Shown here piece after piece: positions 1,134 to 13,618 of a DNA stretch of 46,165 nt. A program made the position numbers and the translations under genes. A model generated the notes under the pieces. The model ran no database searches, was not told the DNA's origin, and was given only the letters and a program-made list of their open reading frames with translations. Source of the stretch: a virus. Each line of letters opens with the position of its first letter. Within the stretch, counting starts at the first letter, position 1. Location of the stretch: positions 1 through 46,165 of the IMG/VR virus record IMGVR_UViG_3300042465_003176; one strand, written 5' to 3'.

Positions 1134-1168
1134 ATATTATCATTTCAACATCGTATTGTTGTTGTAAG
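1134..1168 (-). promoter_or_regulatory. 35-bp early promoter-like element, copy 1
   Basis: Read on the minus strand it matches the consensus CTTACA-R-N4-RAYACG-N7-AW-TGATAATAT. The TGATAATAT block looks like an extended -10. It lies 34 nt before the start of 1002-1100 and would drive the leftward cluster down to the window edge. Confidence 0.75.
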
Positions 1169-1229
1169 AAGGTTGAACATTATTTGTATGAATTTAAAGT
1201 ATCACAGGTATAATGAAGAACCCCTTTGT

Positions 1230-1517
1230 TTACAAGGCTTTTCTCTCATATTTAGCCACTTTAAACTCATAATACGCCCAAATTGCTTGGTTAATACGGT
1301 CGAATTCACTTGCTCCGCTTAAGTAAGGCGCTACGGAGTTATAGAAGTCGGTTAATTCTTCATCAACATCACTAAATTGCTTTTTAAACTCTTCAATGTA
1401 ATCGCCTTGCATGTAATTTAATCCAATTACTTTACCATCTTGCTTAACCACAAGTATATAACGGTCATCACTTGGGCACCAAACTATCTCTCTACTCTCT
1501 ACTAATCTATAATTCAT
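1230..1517 (-). CDS. Small early protein, unknown function (95 aa)
   Basis: A 95-residue acidic, aromatic-rich soluble protein. The N-terminal half looks like beta strands (V-E-S-R-E-I-V-W, Y-I-L-V-V-K-Q-D-G-K-V-I-G-L) and the C-terminal half helical (F-D-R-I-N-Q-A-I-W-A-Y-Y-E-F). No family is recognised. The start is 24 nt downstream of promoter-like element copy 2 (1541-1575), so it appears to have its own transcription unit. Function is unknown. Confidence 0.65.
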   Translation of the reverse strand: MNYRLVESREIVWCPSDDRYILVVKQDGKVIGLNYMQGDYIEEFKKQFSDVDEELTDFYNSVAPYLSGASEFDRINQAIWAYYEFKVAKYERKAL

Positions 1518-1532
1518 ACTATTTGTTATTTG

Positions 1533-1631
1533 TTACATATATATTATCAATTTAGTATCGTGTTTGTCTTGTAAGGCTATATATAGGTATATCTGGAATA
1601 TAGGTAGGACGGAGTCTACTCTTCCGGTCAT
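1533..1631 (-). CDS. Possible 32-residue microprotein overlapping a promoter element
   Basis: The ATG at 1631 opens a 32-codon frame ending TAA at 1533. The start is 24 nt downstream of promoter-like element copy 3 (1655-1689), the same distance as for copy 2 and its gene. No other gene is available for copy 3. The frame runs through element copy 2, so translation and initiation at copy 2 would compete. The peptide is mildly hydrophobic. It may be a real leader peptide or a chance frame. Confidence 0.3.
   Translation of the reverse strand: MTGRVDSVLPIFQIYLYIALQDKHDTKLIIYM
1541..1575 (-). promoter_or_regulatory. 35-bp early promoter-like element, copy 2
   Basis: Full match to the consensus on the minus strand (CTTACA, AACACG, TGATAATAT in the fixed register). 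It lies 24 nt upstream of the start of 1230-1517. Confidence 0.75.
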
Positions 1632-1654
1632 TATTTCAGTGCCAGGCTACACAT

Positions 1655-1689
1655 ATATTATCATTAGGTGGCCGTATTCTCGTTGTAAG
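1655..1689 (-). promoter_or_regulatory. 35-bp early promoter-like element, copy 3
   Basis: Full consensus match on the minus strand (CTTACA, AATACG, TGATAATAT). Only the small frame 1533-1631 follows before copy 2. It is preceded, on its upstream side, by the GC-rich 12-bp repeat at 1705-1726. Confidence 0.7.
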
Positions 1690-1704
1690 AGCTTTTAGCG
1701 GAGT

Positions 1705-1726
1705 GCTATACGCGTTGCTATACACG
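1705..1726. repeat. GCTATACGCGTT repeat, site A
   Basis: One complete 12-bp unit GCTATACGCGTT followed by a partial unit GCTATACACG. The same unit recurs at 3100-3125 and 3508-3538, each time just upstream of a leftward promoter-like element. It is GC-rich against an AT-rich background. Confidence 0.6.
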
Positions 1727-1751
1727 TGTTTTGGGTAAACCCGTATAAAAG

Positions 1752-1798
1752 TGTGACACTAGCCTATTAAACTAGTAATAGTAGGCTAACGTCGCACT
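1752..1798 (-). terminator. Long hairpin, probable terminator after 1819-2187
   Basis: An imperfect inverted repeat pairs GTGCGACGTTAGCCTA with TAGGCTAGTGTCACAC (minus-strand sense), with a short loop, followed by ACTTTTAT. It sits just past the end of the leftward gene 1819-2187. One arm (AATAGTAGGCTAACGTCGCACT) recurs almost exactly at 3967-3988, so it may be a regulated or structural hairpin rather than a plain terminator; the T-tract is short. Confidence 0.45.
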
Positions 1799-1818
1799 AT
1801 TTTAGAGAGCAGAAGAGA

Positions 1819-2187
1819 CTATTCAGCCTCAACTACATCTAAGTTAACAATAGTTGCCAATGTTCTTACATTACTTGGCATATCGGTTGATTGTGACCAG
1901 TACTCTCTTTTAATCCAACATGGCATTATAGATAACTTTGGTAACATTACTTTTAATACTTCGTCGTGGTTGTAAGTCACTCGTTGGTTCTTGTTATTAA
2001 CAAAGGTTATTACTTGATTTCTACCAAACCAACTTTTTCTTACTACAAAGTTAGCACGTTCTATTGGCGGATATATTAAGGCCAAGTCTTCAGGACTTAA
2101 TTTAGCGATCGCTTCAGTTAATAATTCTTTGTTAGTTTTCACTACTTCAACTACTTCTGCTACTACTTCTTTTTTAAATTTGTTCAT
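1819..2187 (-). CDS. Early protein, unknown function (122 aa)
   Basis: A 122-residue protein with an N-terminal helix rich in Lys, Val and Glu, then an aromatic middle (V-V-R-K-S-W-F-G-R-N-Q) and a beta-rich end. No signal peptide, membrane segment or known motif is seen. Its start lies 42 nt downstream of promoter-like element copy 4 (2229-2263) and it is followed by the hairpin at 1752-1798, so it looks like a single-gene transcription unit. Function is unknown. Confidence 0.65.
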   Translation of the reverse strand: MNKFKKEVVAEVVEVVKTNKELLTEAIAKLSPEDLALIYPPIERANFVVRKSWFGRNQVITFVNNKNQRVTYNHDEVLKVMLPKLSIMPCWIKREYWSQSTDMPSNVRTLATIVNLDVVEAE

Positions 2188-2228
2188 CTTTATTATATTT
2201 AATTTGTTATTTATTATTTGTTACATTT

Positions 2229-2263
2229 ATATTATCAATTACTATCCGTATTCTTATTGTAAG
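2229..2263 (-). promoter_or_regulatory. 35-bp early promoter-like element, copy 4
   Basis: Full consensus match on the minus strand (CTTACA, AATACG, TGATAATAT). It lies 42 nt upstream of the start of 1819-2187. Confidence 0.75.
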
Positions 2264-2268
2264 AACGT

Positions 2269-2457
2269 TTAGTTATATATTAAGTCTTTTTGTTCTTGAG
2301 TCAAGTCGTCACTATCTTGCATTTTAAGTTTTAAAGCATGATATGCATATTGCACGTCAACATCTAAGTCGTCGTCAGAATCAATATCTGCTAATAATTC
2401 TTTTGCTTCATACAATAAGTCTAAAACTTTCATTATTGTTGTTGTTAAATCTTTCAT
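2269..2457 (-). CDS. Acidic small early protein (62 aa)
   Basis: A 62-residue, strongly acidic, mostly helical protein with an Asp run near residues 26-32 (I-D-S-D-D-D-L-D-V-D). Highly acidic small proteins in phage early regions often act as DNA mimics or bind host polymerase or nucleases, but nothing here shows the target. Its start lies 27 nt downstream of element copy 5 (2484-2518); its stop is only 6 nt from element copy 4, which serves the next gene. Confidence 0.6.
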   Translation of the reverse strand: MKDLTTTIMKVLDLLYEAKELLADIDSDDDLDVDVQYAYHALKLKMQDSDDLTQEQKDLIYN

Positions 2458-2483
2458 AGTATTAGTATTTATTTGTTACATTT

Positions 2484-2518
2484 ATATTATCAATTACTAG
2501 CCGTATTAAGACTGTAGA
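2484..2518 (-). promoter_or_regulatory. 35-bp early promoter-like element, copy 5
   Basis: Minus-strand match with TCTACA in place of CTTACA in the upstream block; AATACG and TGATAATAT are intact in the fixed register. It lies 27 nt upstream of the start of 2269-2457. Confidence 0.7.
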
Positions 2519-2523
2519 TAATA

Positions 2524-2550
2524 AAGCCTTTTTAAAGCTTGCTTAGGCTT
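2524..2550 (-). terminator. Hairpin after 2558-2764, weak terminator candidate
   Basis: AAGCCT pairs with AGGCTT around a 15-nt loop; the minus-strand sequence continues TATTATC, so the U-tract is poor. Its position between the end of 2558-2764 and the next promoter element fits a terminator or processing hairpin. Confidence 0.35.
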
Positions 2551-2557
2551 GAGGGTA

Positions 2558-2764
2558 TTAGGCATAGTTATTTATTATAAACTGTAACCATACCTTATGG
2601 TCTGACCCATCTACTAAGACTCCATAATAATCCGCTATTTGATCTTCCTCCTCCTCTGTTGGATATAGGTCTGGATTATTATATAGGTCTTCCAATAATT
2701 CTATTAATCCTTCCTTAGTCAATAACCTTTTTAATTCCTTTTTAGATAATTTAGATTGTTCCAT
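2558..2764 (-). CDS. Acidic small early protein (68 aa)
   Basis: A 68-residue acidic helical protein with an N-terminal Lys-rich helix (S-K-K-E-L-K-R-L-L) and a Glu/Asp cluster (P-T-E-E-E-E-D-Q-I-A-D-Y-Y-G) near the middle. No family is recognised. Its start lies 37 nt downstream of element copy 6 (2801-2835) and a hairpin follows the stop. It appears to be a single-gene unit of the leftward array; the early role is inferred from position. Confidence 0.6.
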   Translation of the reverse strand: MEQSKLSKKELKRLLTKEGLIELLEDLYNNPDLYPTEEEEDQIADYYGVLVDGSDHKVWLQFIINNYA

Positions 2765-2800
2765 TTTTTATTTATTTATTATTAATTATTTTATTCAATT

Positions 2801-2835
2801 ATATTATCATTTTCACCTCGTGTCCTTACTGTAAG
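2801..2835 (-). promoter_or_regulatory. 35-bp early promoter-like element, copy 6
   Basis: Full match on the minus strand (CTTACA, GACACG, TGATAATAT). In this copy the upstream block forms a near-perfect palindrome GTCCTTACAGTAAGGAC at 2822-2838. It lies 37 nt upstream of 2558-2764. Confidence 0.7.
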
Positions 2836-2838
2836 GAC

Positions 2839-3015
2839 TTATATAACTTTATATTTATATAAATTTCTAGTCAATAATTTATCAACTTCTTCTAAGTCTT
2901 TTTTATTTATTATTAAATTTGAATTTAATATATAAAAAGAATAATTTAATTTGTTAGAATTAATTAATATTGAATTAATTAAAGATTTGAAATTTTGATT
3001 GATTTTTAAAGTCAT
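2839..3015 (-). CDS. Small early protein, unknown function (58 aa)
   Basis: The ATG at 3015 opens a 58-codon frame ending TAA at 2839; it is just too short for common ORF cut-offs. The protein is rich in Asn, Leu, Ile and Lys, with a more charged C-terminal third (K-K-D-L-E-E-V-D-K-L-L). The start is 43 nt downstream of element copy 7 (3058-3092), the same distance as copy 8 to its gene, which strongly supports expression. The stop abuts element copy 6. No domain is recognised. Confidence 0.6.
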   Translation of the reverse strand: MTLKINQNFKSLINSILINSNKLNYSFYILNSNLIINKKDLEEVDKLLTRNLYKYKVI

Positions 3016-3057
3016 TTTATTTGATTTATTTATTATTATTAATTTCTTTATTCATAT

Positions 3058-3092
3058 ATATTATCATTTTCTTGTCGTATTAAGACTGTAAG
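3058..3092 (-). promoter_or_regulatory. 35-bp early promoter-like element, copy 7
   Basis: Full match on the minus strand (CTTACA, AATACG, TGATAATAT). This copy happens to contain TAATACGAC, the first nine bases of the T7 promoter, but the rest of the T7 site is absent. It lies 43 nt upstream of 2839-3015. Confidence 0.75.
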
Positions 3093-3099
3093 AATTTTT

Positions 3100-3125
3100 G
3101 CTATACGCGTTGCTATACGCGTTGC
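3100..3125. repeat. GCTATACGCGTT repeat, site B (two tandem units)
   Basis: Two perfect tandem copies of the 12-bp unit GCTATACGCGTT followed by GC. They lie 7 nt beyond the outer edge of promoter-like element copy 7, on its upstream side. Confidence 0.65.
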
Positions 3126-3159
3126 CCACGGCTCCACCTGCTAATTCCATCTAGTGGAG

Positions 3160-3184
3160 TAAAAAGAGCCATGTTACAGGCTCT
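3160..3184 (-). terminator. Rho-independent terminator after 3212-3415
   Basis: On the minus strand AGAGCC and GGCTCT form a 6-bp stem around an 8-nt loop, followed directly by TTTTA. It sits 28 nt past the stop of the leftward gene 3212-3415. This is the clearest intrinsic terminator of the early array. Confidence 0.7.
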
Positions 3185-3211
3185 AGTATTTAGCTTATAA
3201 AATAACTTCTT

Positions 3212-3415
3212 TTAAGAGACTAGTTCATTTAAAGCGTCTTCAATACTGCTTATTATTAGTTCTGCATGAATTTGTTCTACTAATACTAATTTAAGTTCTT
3301 CTAGTTCTTGCAGTTCATCTATATATTCATCTTCTTCTATAGTTTCATAAAAAGCAAATATCTTTGTTTCTACTAAGTCTAATAGCATACTAAGTTGTTC
3401 TAAGTCTAATGTCAT
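3212..3415 (-). CDS. Acidic helical early protein (67 aa)
   Basis: A 67-residue, very acidic, Leu-rich protein with a predicted helical heptad pattern along most of its length (M-L-L-D-L-V-E-T-K-I, then E-L-Q-E-L-E-E-L-K-L-V-L). No known domain is seen. It is the first gene of the leftward array, starting 43 nt downstream of element copy 8 (3458-3492) and ended by the terminator at 3160-3184. Being nearest the control region it is probably expressed very early; the target is unknown. Confidence 0.6.
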   Translation of the reverse strand: MTLDLEQLSMLLDLVETKIFAFYETIEEDEYIDELQELEELKLVLVEQIHAELIISSIEDALNELVS

Positions 3416-3457
3416 AATTTTTAATTTTATTGTTTATATTAATTTCTTTATTCATAT

Positions 3458-3492
3458 ATATTATCATTTATATAATGTGTCCAGACTGTAAG
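3458..3492 (-). promoter_or_regulatory. 35-bp early promoter-like element, copy 8
   Basis: Minus-strand match with CTTACA, GACACA (instead of RAYACG) and TGATAATAT in the fixed register. It is the outermost copy, 43 nt upstream of 3212-3415 and next to repeat site C. Confidence 0.7.
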
Positions 3493-3507
3493 TATATGTA
3501 GTTGGTT

Positions 3508-3538
3508 GCTATACACGCTTGCGCGTTGCGCTTCGCGT
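3508..3538. repeat. GCTATAC-type repeat, site C (diverged)
   Basis: GCTATACACGCTT followed by GCGCGTTGCGCTTCGCG: a diverged and extended version of the GCTATACGCGTT unit. It again lies just upstream of a leftward promoter-like element (copy 8). It is strikingly GC-rich for this genome. Confidence 0.5.
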
Positions 3539-3550
3539 TATCATATCACA

Positions 3551-3838: not shown

Positions 3839-3942
3839 TAACATACTTTTAAATCAACATAAAAATTTTTTATAATATTTTTTTACATCTTATTATAATA
3901 AACGCACGTCAACTTATAATAACAAATGAACGAAAAGAGTGA

Positions 3943-3986
3943 CGTTAGGTAGTTATATATAAAAATAGTAGGCTAATGTCACACTG
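3943..3986 (+). other. Hairpin upstream of the rightward genes
   Basis: GTGACGTTAG pairs with CTAATGTCAC around an A/T-rich loop. The right arm with its flank repeats the arm of the 1752-1798 hairpin. It could be a leader hairpin, an attenuator or a protein-binding site. Confidence 0.4.
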
Positions 3987-4036
3987 TAAGAATTTATGAC
4001 TATGCGTAATTGTTATACTATAAATAATAAGTAATT

Positions 4037-8548: not shown

Positions 8549-9049
8549 ATGAAGAATATAATAACAATGCTCCTTTTGGTTTTAATTACATCTTGTGGAG
8601 CTAGGAAAGTTAGTAAAGAAACACTGGCGATAAAAAAAGATAGTATTGTAAAAACAGACATTGCGGTTACAACTATAGAAAACCAAAATAAAAAAGACTC
8701 TACAAATATAAACACATTAGTTTTAACAGACGAGTTTATTATAACACCAATAGATACAGCTAAGCCGATATTCGTAAATAACGTAGAATATAAGAACGTT
8801 GTTTTAAAGATAAAAAAAACTAAAGCTAATACTTTATATACAAATAACAAAACGGAGTCTAATACTAAGCTTAAAGACTCAATAGTAGGCATTGTAGCCA
8901 TTAAAAAAGAAACTGTAAATGAAGACTCAAAGTTTATTGACAAAAAAGAAAGCATTGTTGGGAATATTATCGTATATTCACTACTATTATTATTTTGGAT
9001 TATTGTTATATTGTTTATTAGAAAAACGTATAAAGAGTATGTTGCGTAG
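8549..9049 (+). CDS. Probable unimolecular spanin (u-spanin, 166 aa)
   Basis: The N-terminus is a lipoprotein signal with lipobox L-I-T-S-C, lipidated cysteine C16. About 120 hydrophilic Lys/Thr/Asn-rich residues follow. A single C-terminal transmembrane helix (about 139-157, Y-S-L-L-L-L-F-W-I-I-V-I-L-F-I) ends in a basic tail. An outer-membrane lipid anchor plus an inner-membrane helix in one chain is the u-spanin design known from phage T1 gp11, which fuses the two membranes in the last lysis step. Its position after the endolysin fits. Confidence 0.7.
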   Translation: MKNIITMLLLVLITSCGARKVSKETLAIKKDSIVKTDIAVTTIENQNKKDSTNINTLVLTDEFIITPIDTAKPIFVNNVEYKNVVLKIKKTKANTLYTNNKTESNTKLKDSIVGIVAIKKETVNEDSKFIDKKESIVGNIIVYSLLLLFWIIVILFIRKTYKEYVA

Positions 9050-9109
9050 TTAAAGTTAAAAATTATACGTAATAATAAAATTATTCAATCAAATCAAATC
9101 AAATTAAAT

Positions 9110-10669
9110 ATGTCAGATGCAATAGTAAAAAATCTTAGCTTTGGTGATGAAGCCAGAGATAAGATATTTGAAGGTATTACGAAACTAACAAAAGCAGTTA
9201 GTTCAACATTAGGGGCCGGTGGTAAATGTGTTATGTTAGAAGACAATCACGGTAGACCTATTATAACAAAGGATGGAGTAACGGTGGCAGATAGTATTAT
9301 ACTATTAGATCCTGTTGAGAATATGGGGGCAAGGCTTTTAAAAGAAGCAGCTCGTAAAACTGTTAAAGAAGCCGGAGATGGTACCACTACAGCAACAGTG
9401 TTAACTCACGCTATTTTAGAAGAAGCTTATAAAGTACAATCTAAAACAAACTCTAGAGAATTAAAAAATGGTATTGAAGCAATGACAGAACAAGTAATAG
9501 CTTACTTAGAGTCGATTGCTGTGCCAGTTACTGGGGATATGATTGATAACATTGCAACTATATCTACAAACAACGATCCAATACTTGGTAAAATTATTGG
9601 CGATGCTTTTAGAGCAGTTGGTGAGAATGGTATTGTAATGATGGAGTCATCAACATTGCCTGAAACAGAAATAGAAATTATAGATGGAGTTCAATATGAT
9701 AAGGGATTAGTTAATTCACATTTTATAACTAACCCAAATAAAAGAGTTGCTGAATTAGACAACCCTTTAGTTTTGATAATTGAATCTCCAGTTGAAAGCA
9801 TTAGGCAGATACAGTCTGTTTTGGAATATGTAATAAAAACAAATAAATCTTTATTAATTATAGCAGATATTGAAACTAATGTTTTAGCAGCGCTTGCAAT
9901 GAATAAAGTAAAAGGAAATATAAAGGTTAATGTAATCAATGCTCCAACCTATGGTATCAGTAAGAAAGATACATTAATGGATTTAGCATTATTAACCGGA
10001 GCAACCATTATAAATGAGGATCTTGGAGATGATATGGATCTTATCCAACCAGATCATTTAGGTAGTTGCTTAAAAAGTACAACAGATGATTCCGAGACTA
10101 TAATTCAAGTTGGCGAAACAACTGAAGAAGTGCAGGAATTAATTGATGGATTAAAAGAGCAATTAGAAAGCAAACTTAACCCGGGCGAAGTAATAAGATT
10201 AGAAAAAAGGCTTGCTAGATTATCAGCTAAAGTAGCGGTAGTAAAAGTAGGTGCTAATTCAGATATTGAATTAAAAGAAAAAGCAGATAGAGTAGAAGAT
10301 GCCATTTGCGCAACTAAAGCAGCTATTAAAGAAGGTATTGTTCCTGGAGGCGGAATTGCTCTACTTGATGCATCCAAAAGTTTTGAAATATCAAATACAG
10401 GAGGAGATGTATTATTAAAAGCTATCCAAGCCCCTTTTAAAACAATATTAAATAACGCGGGTATTGGTTACTCAATAGACGGATCTAAAGCGCCAGGTTA
10501 CGGCTTAAACGTAGTTACAAGTGAATATGTGAATATGATTGAAGCTGGGATTATTGATCCATTACTTGTTACTAAGTCAGCATTAAAGAATGCAGCATCC
10601 GTAGCTGTTACAATATTATCAACCGATTGTGTAATCAATAACTTAAGAGTAAATGAAAGCAATAGGTAA
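9110..10669 (+). CDS. groEL: Phage-encoded chaperonin GroEL (519 aa)
   Basis: Clear full-length group I chaperonin with equatorial, intermediate and apical domains. ATPase motifs are intact: T-K-D-G at 53-56, D-G-T-T-T at 90-94, G-G-G at 413-415 and the intermediate-domain Asp in R-V-E-D (D397, E. coli D398). The apical substrate-binding segment reads G-L-V-N-S-H-F, so E. coli Y199 and Y203 are replaced by Leu and His while F204 is kept. The C-terminus ends N-N-L-R-V-N-E-S-N-R with no G-G-M tail, making it shorter than the 548-residue E. coli protein. Probably folds phage structural proteins. The GroES-like gene overlaps its 3' end. Confidence 0.95.
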   Translation: MSDAIVKNLSFGDEARDKIFEGITKLTKAVSSTLGAGGKCVMLEDNHGRPIITKDGVTVADSIILLDPVENMGARLLKEAARKTVKEAGDGTTTATVLTHAILEEAYKVQSKTNSRELKNGIEAMTEQVIAYLESIAVPVTGDMIDNIATISTNNDPILGKIIGDAFRAVGENGIVMMESSTLPETEIEIIDGVQYDKGLVNSHFITNPNKRVAELDNPLVLIIESPVESIRQIQSVLEYVIKTNKSLLIIADIETNVLAALAMNKVKGNIKVNVINAPTYGISKKDTLMDLALLTGATIINEDLGDDMDLIQPDHLGSCLKSTTDDSETIIQVGETTEEVQELIDGLKEQLESKLNPGEVIRLEKRLARLSAKVAVVKVGANSDIELKEKADRVEDAICATKAAIKEGIVPGGGIALLDASKSFEISNTGGDVLLKAIQAPFKTILNNAGIGYSIDGSKAPGYGLNVVTSEYVNMIEAGIIDPLLVTKSALKNAASVAVTILSTDCVINNLRVNESNR

Positions 10670-12890: not shown

Positions 12891-13224
12891 CCCATTCTCA
12901 ACATTATCTAATACGCCTATACATAAAAAGAAATTACCTAATGGCATTAATGCTGAGGCAAATTCTGATGGCAGTATTAATGTAGATAAAAGTTTAAAAG
13001 GAAAAGAACTTGATTTAGCTATAGGCCATGAAATGGTGCATCTAGATCAAATGAAAAACCCTATTAAGCAATTAGGTTATGATGATGATTATGTATTCTG
13101 GAAAGGCAAAAAATATGCTCGTGATTCTATGGAAGAAGGAAGTAAAAATCTACCTTGGGAAAAAGAAGCTTGGGCAAAACAAGGTGCTTATGCTAAAATG
13201 TTAAAAAGCAAAAAAAGCACGTAA
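12874..13224 (+). CDS. Small zinc metallopeptidase-like protein (116 aa)
   Basis: Residues 51-60 read G-H-E-M-V-H-L-D-Q-M, an H-E-x-x-H zinc site (H52, E53, H56). Downstream, W-E-K-E-A-W supplies a possible third ligand (E98), as in gluzincin-type folds. At 116 residues it is a minimal catalytic domain with no signal peptide, so it should act in the cytoplasm or virion. No prohead protease is evident elsewhere, so processing of the capsid or the giant virion protein is a reasonable guess. It overlaps the preceding gene. Confidence 0.6.
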   Translation: MFKLNNPFSTLSNTPIHKKKLPNGINAEANSDGSINVDKSLKGKELDLAIGHEMVHLDQMKNPIKQLGYDDDYVFWKGKKYARDSMEEGSKNLPWEKEAWAKQGAYAKMLKSKKST

Positions 13225-13258
13225 TAATAATATTATATAAATCTAATATTATTTAATT

Positions 13259-13618
13259 ATGAAAAAAGTATTTTTAATTATCGTAGTTGCATTATTTAGT
13301 TTAAATATTTTTGCTCAGTCAAAAATTAGTTCTAATAATTTAGTTGGTTTTTGGGAGCCAGATAAACATTCGTCAAATATGGTTTTTTGGTTAGATGCCA
13401 AACATAATTTACAAATGGTAGAATTTGATACAATGGATGGAGCACCATTACGTTTGTTATCAATGAAGATTATAAATGATGAATTAGTAGTTAAAACTAT
13501 ATGCGACGAAAAGAATTGGGAAATAGAAAGTACTTATACTTTCATAGATAATAATACTTTGCAATGTTCTATCAAAGGGCCGATTAGTGGCACTGTAATA
13601 TATACAAAAATAAAATAA
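13259..13618 (+). CDS. Secreted lipocalin-like protein, possible host-derived gene (119 aa)
   Basis: It begins with a clear Sec signal peptide (M-K-K-V-F-L-I-I-V-V-A-L-F-S-L-N-I-F-A-Q-S, cut near A19-Q20), the type usual in Bacteroidota. The mature part is beta-rich, with L-V-G-F-W-E-P near its start, a pattern seen in small lipocalin-like proteins. It has its own intergenic leader and differs from the basic proteins around it. It may be a morphotype or envelope-modifying accessory gene; no function is shown. Confidence 0.6.
   Translation: MKKVFLIIVVALFSLNIFAQSKISSNNLVGFWEPDKHSSNMVFWLDAKHNLQMVEFDTMDGAPLRLLSMKIINDELVVKTICDEKNWEIESTYTFIDNNTLQCSIKGPISGTVIYTKIK

Follow-up and report, generated by a model that had tools for sequence, protein, structure and literature searches.

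A rigid 35-bp element, here called class I, very probably represents an early promoter class, as judged from its sequence, strand and placement in a family of related viruses. We consider it reasonably probable that class I serves as the early-gene promoter of this Bacteroidota phage family under the direction of a phage-borne specificity factor. The element appears to be family-wide, with an unusual three-block architecture, and is apparently phage-specific. The DNA analyzed (the window) is a 46-kb fragment, 46,165 nucleotides in full, of IMG/VR virus record IMGVR_UViG_3300042465_003176, whose relatives measure 58-67 kb. Its left end holds the early array, followed by the late operon (4037-42966) and then by leftward RNR and resolvase genes. 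TerL and portal of the window matched PHROG families, and the nearest named relatives were MW202828.1 (TerL 64%) and the Flavobacterium elemo phages (TerL 45%), joined, when judged by portal, by the Cellulophaga Pervagoviridae (e.g. phi38:1). The elemo phages and Pervagoviridae fall outside Crassvirales, and only one muzzle-protein domain pointed to crAss-like phages. The viruses with class I are podoviruses of Bacteroidota and form an uncultured family whose genomes measure about 60-70 kb.

As shown in Table 1, all eight minus-strand copies reported in a preliminary description of the window were found again. Six of them matched 24 of 24 specified positions, and the two exceptions were also as reported, with two mismatches in copy 5 and a single one in copy 8. 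The best match elsewhere in the window, at 9930, had 5 mismatches, and 20 simulated windows (second-order Markov model) gave best matches with 5-7 mismatches of 24. The gap of 23 bp between CTTACA and TAATAT was correct, and so was the remark that TAnnTTTG is not conserved: the strict host box is absent, while the window's clade retains TA-n4-TG. Other parts of that description needed amendment. The 35-bp length holds for the pattern, but conservation extends beyond it, to TATAwrTGTAAC; spacing by helical turns fits the first interval (~11 bp) but not that from block 2 to GATAAT (~15 bp); and the placement of the copies before microgenes fails for copy 3, which has no conserved gene behind it and precedes a conserved non-coding RNA. 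The words TGCTATACAC and GTGTATAGCA were also repeated across the early array, at 3090-3130 and 3500-3540 of the window and in many related loci.

Table 1. Features of the window, in order of position
Feature	Position	Strand	Remarks
Class I copy 1	1134..1168	-	33 nt before ATG of conserved 32-aa ORF 1002-1100
Class I copy 2	1541..1575	-	23 nt before ORF 1230-1517 (95 aa)
Conserved structured RNA, GCCTGR-hairpin-YCGRAAGAGTAGACTCCGTCCTAC	1604..1647	-	Downstream of copy 3
Class I copy 3	1655..1689	-	Precedes conserved non-coding stretch 1604-1647
Terminator-like hairpin, arms GTGYGACRTTAGC / GCTAAYGTCRCAC	1741..1810	-	After ORF 1819-2187
Class I copy 4	2229..2263	-	41 nt before ORF 1819-2187 (122 aa)
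Class I copy 5, TCTACA variant	2484..2518	-	26 nt before ORF 2269-2457 (62 aa)
Class I copy 6	2801..2835	-	36 nt before ORF 2558-2764 (68 aa)
Class I copy 7	3058..3092	-	42 nt before ORF 2839-3015 (58 aa)
Class I copy 8, GACACA variant	3458..3492	-	42 nt before ORF 3212-3415 (67 aa)
Hairpin of the same family as 1741..1810	3935..3992		Junction of early array and late operon
Late-operon start signal, YRCGTRATNRTATATACTATA type	4000..4022	+	At the junction in 10/11 genomes
Class II-like site	9048..9085	+	Before groEL (9110-10669); score 18.1, just below chance maximum 19.8
Class II-like site	13200..13239	+	23 nt before 119-aa ORF 13259-13618; score 20.4
Giant late protein, 2915 aa	34219..42966	+	In place of virion RNAP gene

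The exact 35-bp pattern matched 62 stretches of IMG/VR contigs. Ten near-complete relatives (61-67 kb) were then examined over their full length by PWM, which gave 8-15 class I sites per genome with scores of 16-62 bits, against a simulated chance maximum of 0.2. Every copy in these genomes lay on one strand within the small-gene/replication arm, with sites reaching the replication genes, and the structural genes were without class I elements. De novo EM, blind to the pattern, rediscovered class I upstream of early genes and not of late ones. The conservation past 35 bp (A-W-N-TG-W-A) was also seen in the relatives at positions left unfixed by the search pattern, namely T38 (91%), G39 (93%) and A41 (94%).

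Another set of 141 related loci was selected by the sigma protein alone (see below), and class I was present in 125 of them, where 833 sites shared the strand of the sigma gene and 5 lay on the opposite one. The loci with sigma but without class I mostly had short upstream DNA, lay on a rearranged contig (L120) or carried a motif that had drifted (L257). One further locus, L230, encodes a sigma homologue (59%) with neither promoter class recognized, and is a possible exception. Among 734 distinct sites, 60% lay 15-45 nt before a start codon, compared with 10% of random positions, and only 15 were inside large ORFs. When TACA-N6-AYACG was fixed, the gap to GATAAT was 10 in 450 sites, while any other length occurred in at most one site; the family-wide core reads TACA / AAYACGA / GATAATA. 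Strong support for the earlier proposal of a promoter for leftward early genes comes from the element's single strand, restriction to the early arm, nearness to starts and rigid spacing, from its absence from structural genes, and from the one copy that precedes an RNA and not a protein gene.

That class I consists of operators or iterons (e.g. for replication or partition), or of leader or translation signals, is hardly probable. Such a role would agree with repeated, rigid elements that gather at one end of the early arm, but their orientation always matches the downstream gene, their distances to the start codon show a peak, and the sites extend into replication genes. Moreover, class I directly precedes about 15 of the 33 versions of the structured RNA found among related loci (e.g. 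L037:736, L056:12576, L240:2112), in place of an ORF. The hairpin of this RNA showed compensatory changes, with 20 double-change cells versus 9.3 in shuffles (0 of 500), and pair 6-30 was CG in 24 versions and UA in 4. A slid control gave 0.366 versus at most 0.184, which leans in favour only, since the structure was named after viewing the same sequences. Rfam gave no match for 1604-1647. The RNA is family-specific and would often, though not in every case, have a class I promoter in front of it. A non-coding product behind copy 3 argues that class I is a transcription signal and not a translation signal. The TGCTATACAC / GTGTATAGCA words sometimes lie within the structured-RNA hairpin (L195).

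A sigma70-family protein of about 250 aa was encoded in 18 of the 18 relatives checked (G001-G018), in the same arm as class I. Its identity was recognized by Pfam (Sigma70_r2/r4), PHROGs (phrog_351), 67 PDB sigma chains and Foldseek, and its AlphaFold model had a mean pLDDT of 76. The gene is absent from the window fragment; the relatives' copy falls in the part of the genome that is missing there. Because class I recurs in more than 100 related viruses that encode their own sigma, it looks virus-specific and unlike a host promoter. Neither this sigma nor class I was found in any named relative examined (MW202828, elemo, phi38:1, phi14:2). MW202828.1 (ctfjg026) and the elemo phages resemble the class I viruses in gene order and have a homologous terminase and portal, but differ in having no class I element and no sigma gene. 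In MW202828.1 (L072/L073), a perfect palindrome, GTGTCGTTAACGACAC, flanked by TAA..CG and AACAA, precedes roughly half of 15 early genes, and would be a different early-gene signal in this sigma-less closest named relative.

Transcription by host core RNA polymerase would begin a few bases past GATAATAT and yield leaders of about 15-35 nt, and initiation at class I would be directed by a phage-borne specificity factor, rather than by a virion polymerase or the primary sigma of the host. The leading candidate for this factor is the sigma70-family protein from the same arm. As the predicted reader of class I, we give this sigma somewhat less than an even chance; host RNAP with an accessory factor seems unlikely, another phage or virion factor more unlikely still, and a crAss-type virion RNAP very unlikely. 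Co-variation between sigma and motif was tabulated across clades, a comparison that shared ancestry would confound, and the co-occurrence of sigma and class I could be plain co-inheritance within one virus family. Phage-encoded sigma factors such as SPO1 gp28/gp34 and T4 gp55 act at phage middle and late promoters. The viruses with class I resemble SPO1 and T4 in that a phage-specific promoter class co-occurs with a phage sigma and that two classes suggest a cascade. Unlike in SPO1 and T4, class I has three blocks instead of two, lies in the early arm and stands upstream of the sigma gene itself, and its reader is predicted only.

The second class, class II, reads GTAAA-N12-AYRYGTAATTATA(W)(W)AATA and was found in most loci between the sigma gene, which it directly follows, and the ERF recombinase gene. 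Its spacing is rigid, 66 sites sharing one spacer. An ORF similar to 13259-13618 of the window was preceded by a class II-like site in four relatives (G001, G002, G009, G010). The YRCGTRATNRTATATACTATA signal at the start of the late operon is a relative of class II, and weaker variants precede middle and late genes. Class II, and not class I, resembles an ordinary two-box sigma promoter, and the sigma may read class II only. The two promoter classes suggest an early-to-middle/late cascade, and in the simplest programme class I would serve the early genes, including sigma, and class II would follow with the middle and late genes. We put slightly below an even chance on the full proposal that the phage sigma, or an unrecognized phage polymerase or specificity factor, reads TACA / AYACG / GATAATA and runs a two-class cascade throughout the family, the structured RNA included.

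Several other signals were considered. The terminator-like hairpins of the window belong to a family with conserved arms, GTGYGACRTTAG / CTAAYGTCRCAC, and a partly conserved AT-rich loop, present in 1-4 copies per relative, and the early/late junction held one copy in the same orientation in 11 of 11 genomes. A role of this palindromic hairpin as late promoter was rejected; A/T runs flank most copies, which makes a bidirectional terminator more likely. The motif found by EM on the late strand was also rejected, as it combined terminator hairpins with conserved coding sequence, and so was the resemblance between AATACG of class I and ACGTAAT of class II, both of which drift independently across clades. 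In one relative (L077, G002), a tRNA-like sequence separates the late-operon start signal from the first late gene; it is absent from the window.

The preliminary description had also offered a host promoter with an activator site. This reading is disfavoured by a scan of 84,980 bacterial species genomes, in which the strict class I motif, which recovers only 54 of 719 sites of the family, occurred in only one contig. This contig belongs to the same phage family and sits inside a Sphingobacteriales MAG, the remainder of which contained no class I site within one mismatch. The three-contact promoter TACA / AYACG / GATAATA is apparently not found in cellular genomes, as far as the strict-pattern scan reaches. 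Were the reader a host factor, host targets should exist; none was found with the strict pattern, which favours a phage-borne reader.

The architecture of class I was compared with host promoters as well. The E. coli sigma70 type (TTGACA-N16-18-TATAAT) differs from class I, which is CTTACA-N23-TAATAT with invariant spacing. The primary sigma promoter of Bacteroidota has a TTG at -33, about 19 bp ahead of its -7 box. Column frequencies of class I showed TATA-W-R-TG, with no TTTG and no TTG at -33, and so depart from the Bacteroidota sigma-A boxes; in Flavobacterium, the -7 box of the primary sigma promoter is TAnnTTTG (PMC9723704). Class I is like the Bacteroidota promoter in its AT-rich box, its equally spaced TA and TG and its short A-rich leader before ATG, but differs from it, besides the two missing boxes, in the extra rigid TACA and AYACG and the invariant GATAATA.

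It remains a rather unlikely reading that host RNAP with a host sigma and a host activator bound at CTTACA/AYACG reads class I, while the phage sigma serves class II only. In the relatives examined, class I sites lie upstream of the sigma gene, and this temporal logic speaks for a host reader. The cycle would need another starter, unless sigma is brought in along with the DNA. The position of class II directly behind the sigma gene, its variants at the start of the late operon, and the TA-n4-TG that the window's clade retains where the Bacteroidota -7 box would stand point in the same direction. Against it stand, in addition to the missing boxes and the result of the strict scan, diverged clades that lose TG while keeping GATAATA.

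The preliminary description had also suggested the promoter of a phage-encoded polymerase such as the crAss-like virion RNAP, and this polymerase is probably the wrong one. In the crAss-like phage phi14:2, early genes are transcribed by its own virion RNAP (Drobysheva et al., as reviewed in PMC10136315). The class I viruses are like phi14:2 in having Bacteroidota hosts and an early/replication arm opposite a structural arm that ends in giant proteins, but no homologue of its virion RNAP was found in them, and phi14:2 is without the class I motif (best score 7.1 versus a threshold of 16). No DFDxD-type motif was found in ORFs of at least 300 aa from 11 genomes, and the phi14:2 RNAP (gp66) gave no phmmer or profile (hhalign) match among the ORFs or to the giant-protein profile. 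The giant-protein family showed no RNAP motif, its profile had no match to PDB structures, and its consensus contains a HAD-like DFDDT motif. A search with RNA_pol_Rpb1_1 (Pfam) gave no match in the relatives, but weighs little, since phi14:2 itself also gives none; the search for a T7-type RNAP (PF00940) had no match in the relatives and none in the control genomes. There is only a very slim chance that class I is read by a virion or phage-encoded RNAP as in crAss-like phages or N4, even though the giant late protein sits where the crAss-like virion RNAP gene lies, the elements are restricted to the early arm, and the muzzle-like domain hints at a distant crAss relationship.

Transcription in Bacteroidota phages is experimentally known from very few isolates, and the literature searched contained no report of the class I motif or of any promoter motif for its virus family. 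A motif of tens of bits flags early genes, the early/late boundary and the micro-gene repertoire in many uncultured genomes, and class I might supply compact phage-specific promoters for use in Bacteroidota. In one relative (G018), the same class I site was present at 10-44 and at 60993-61027, that is, at both contig ends, suggesting terminal repeats or a circular map.
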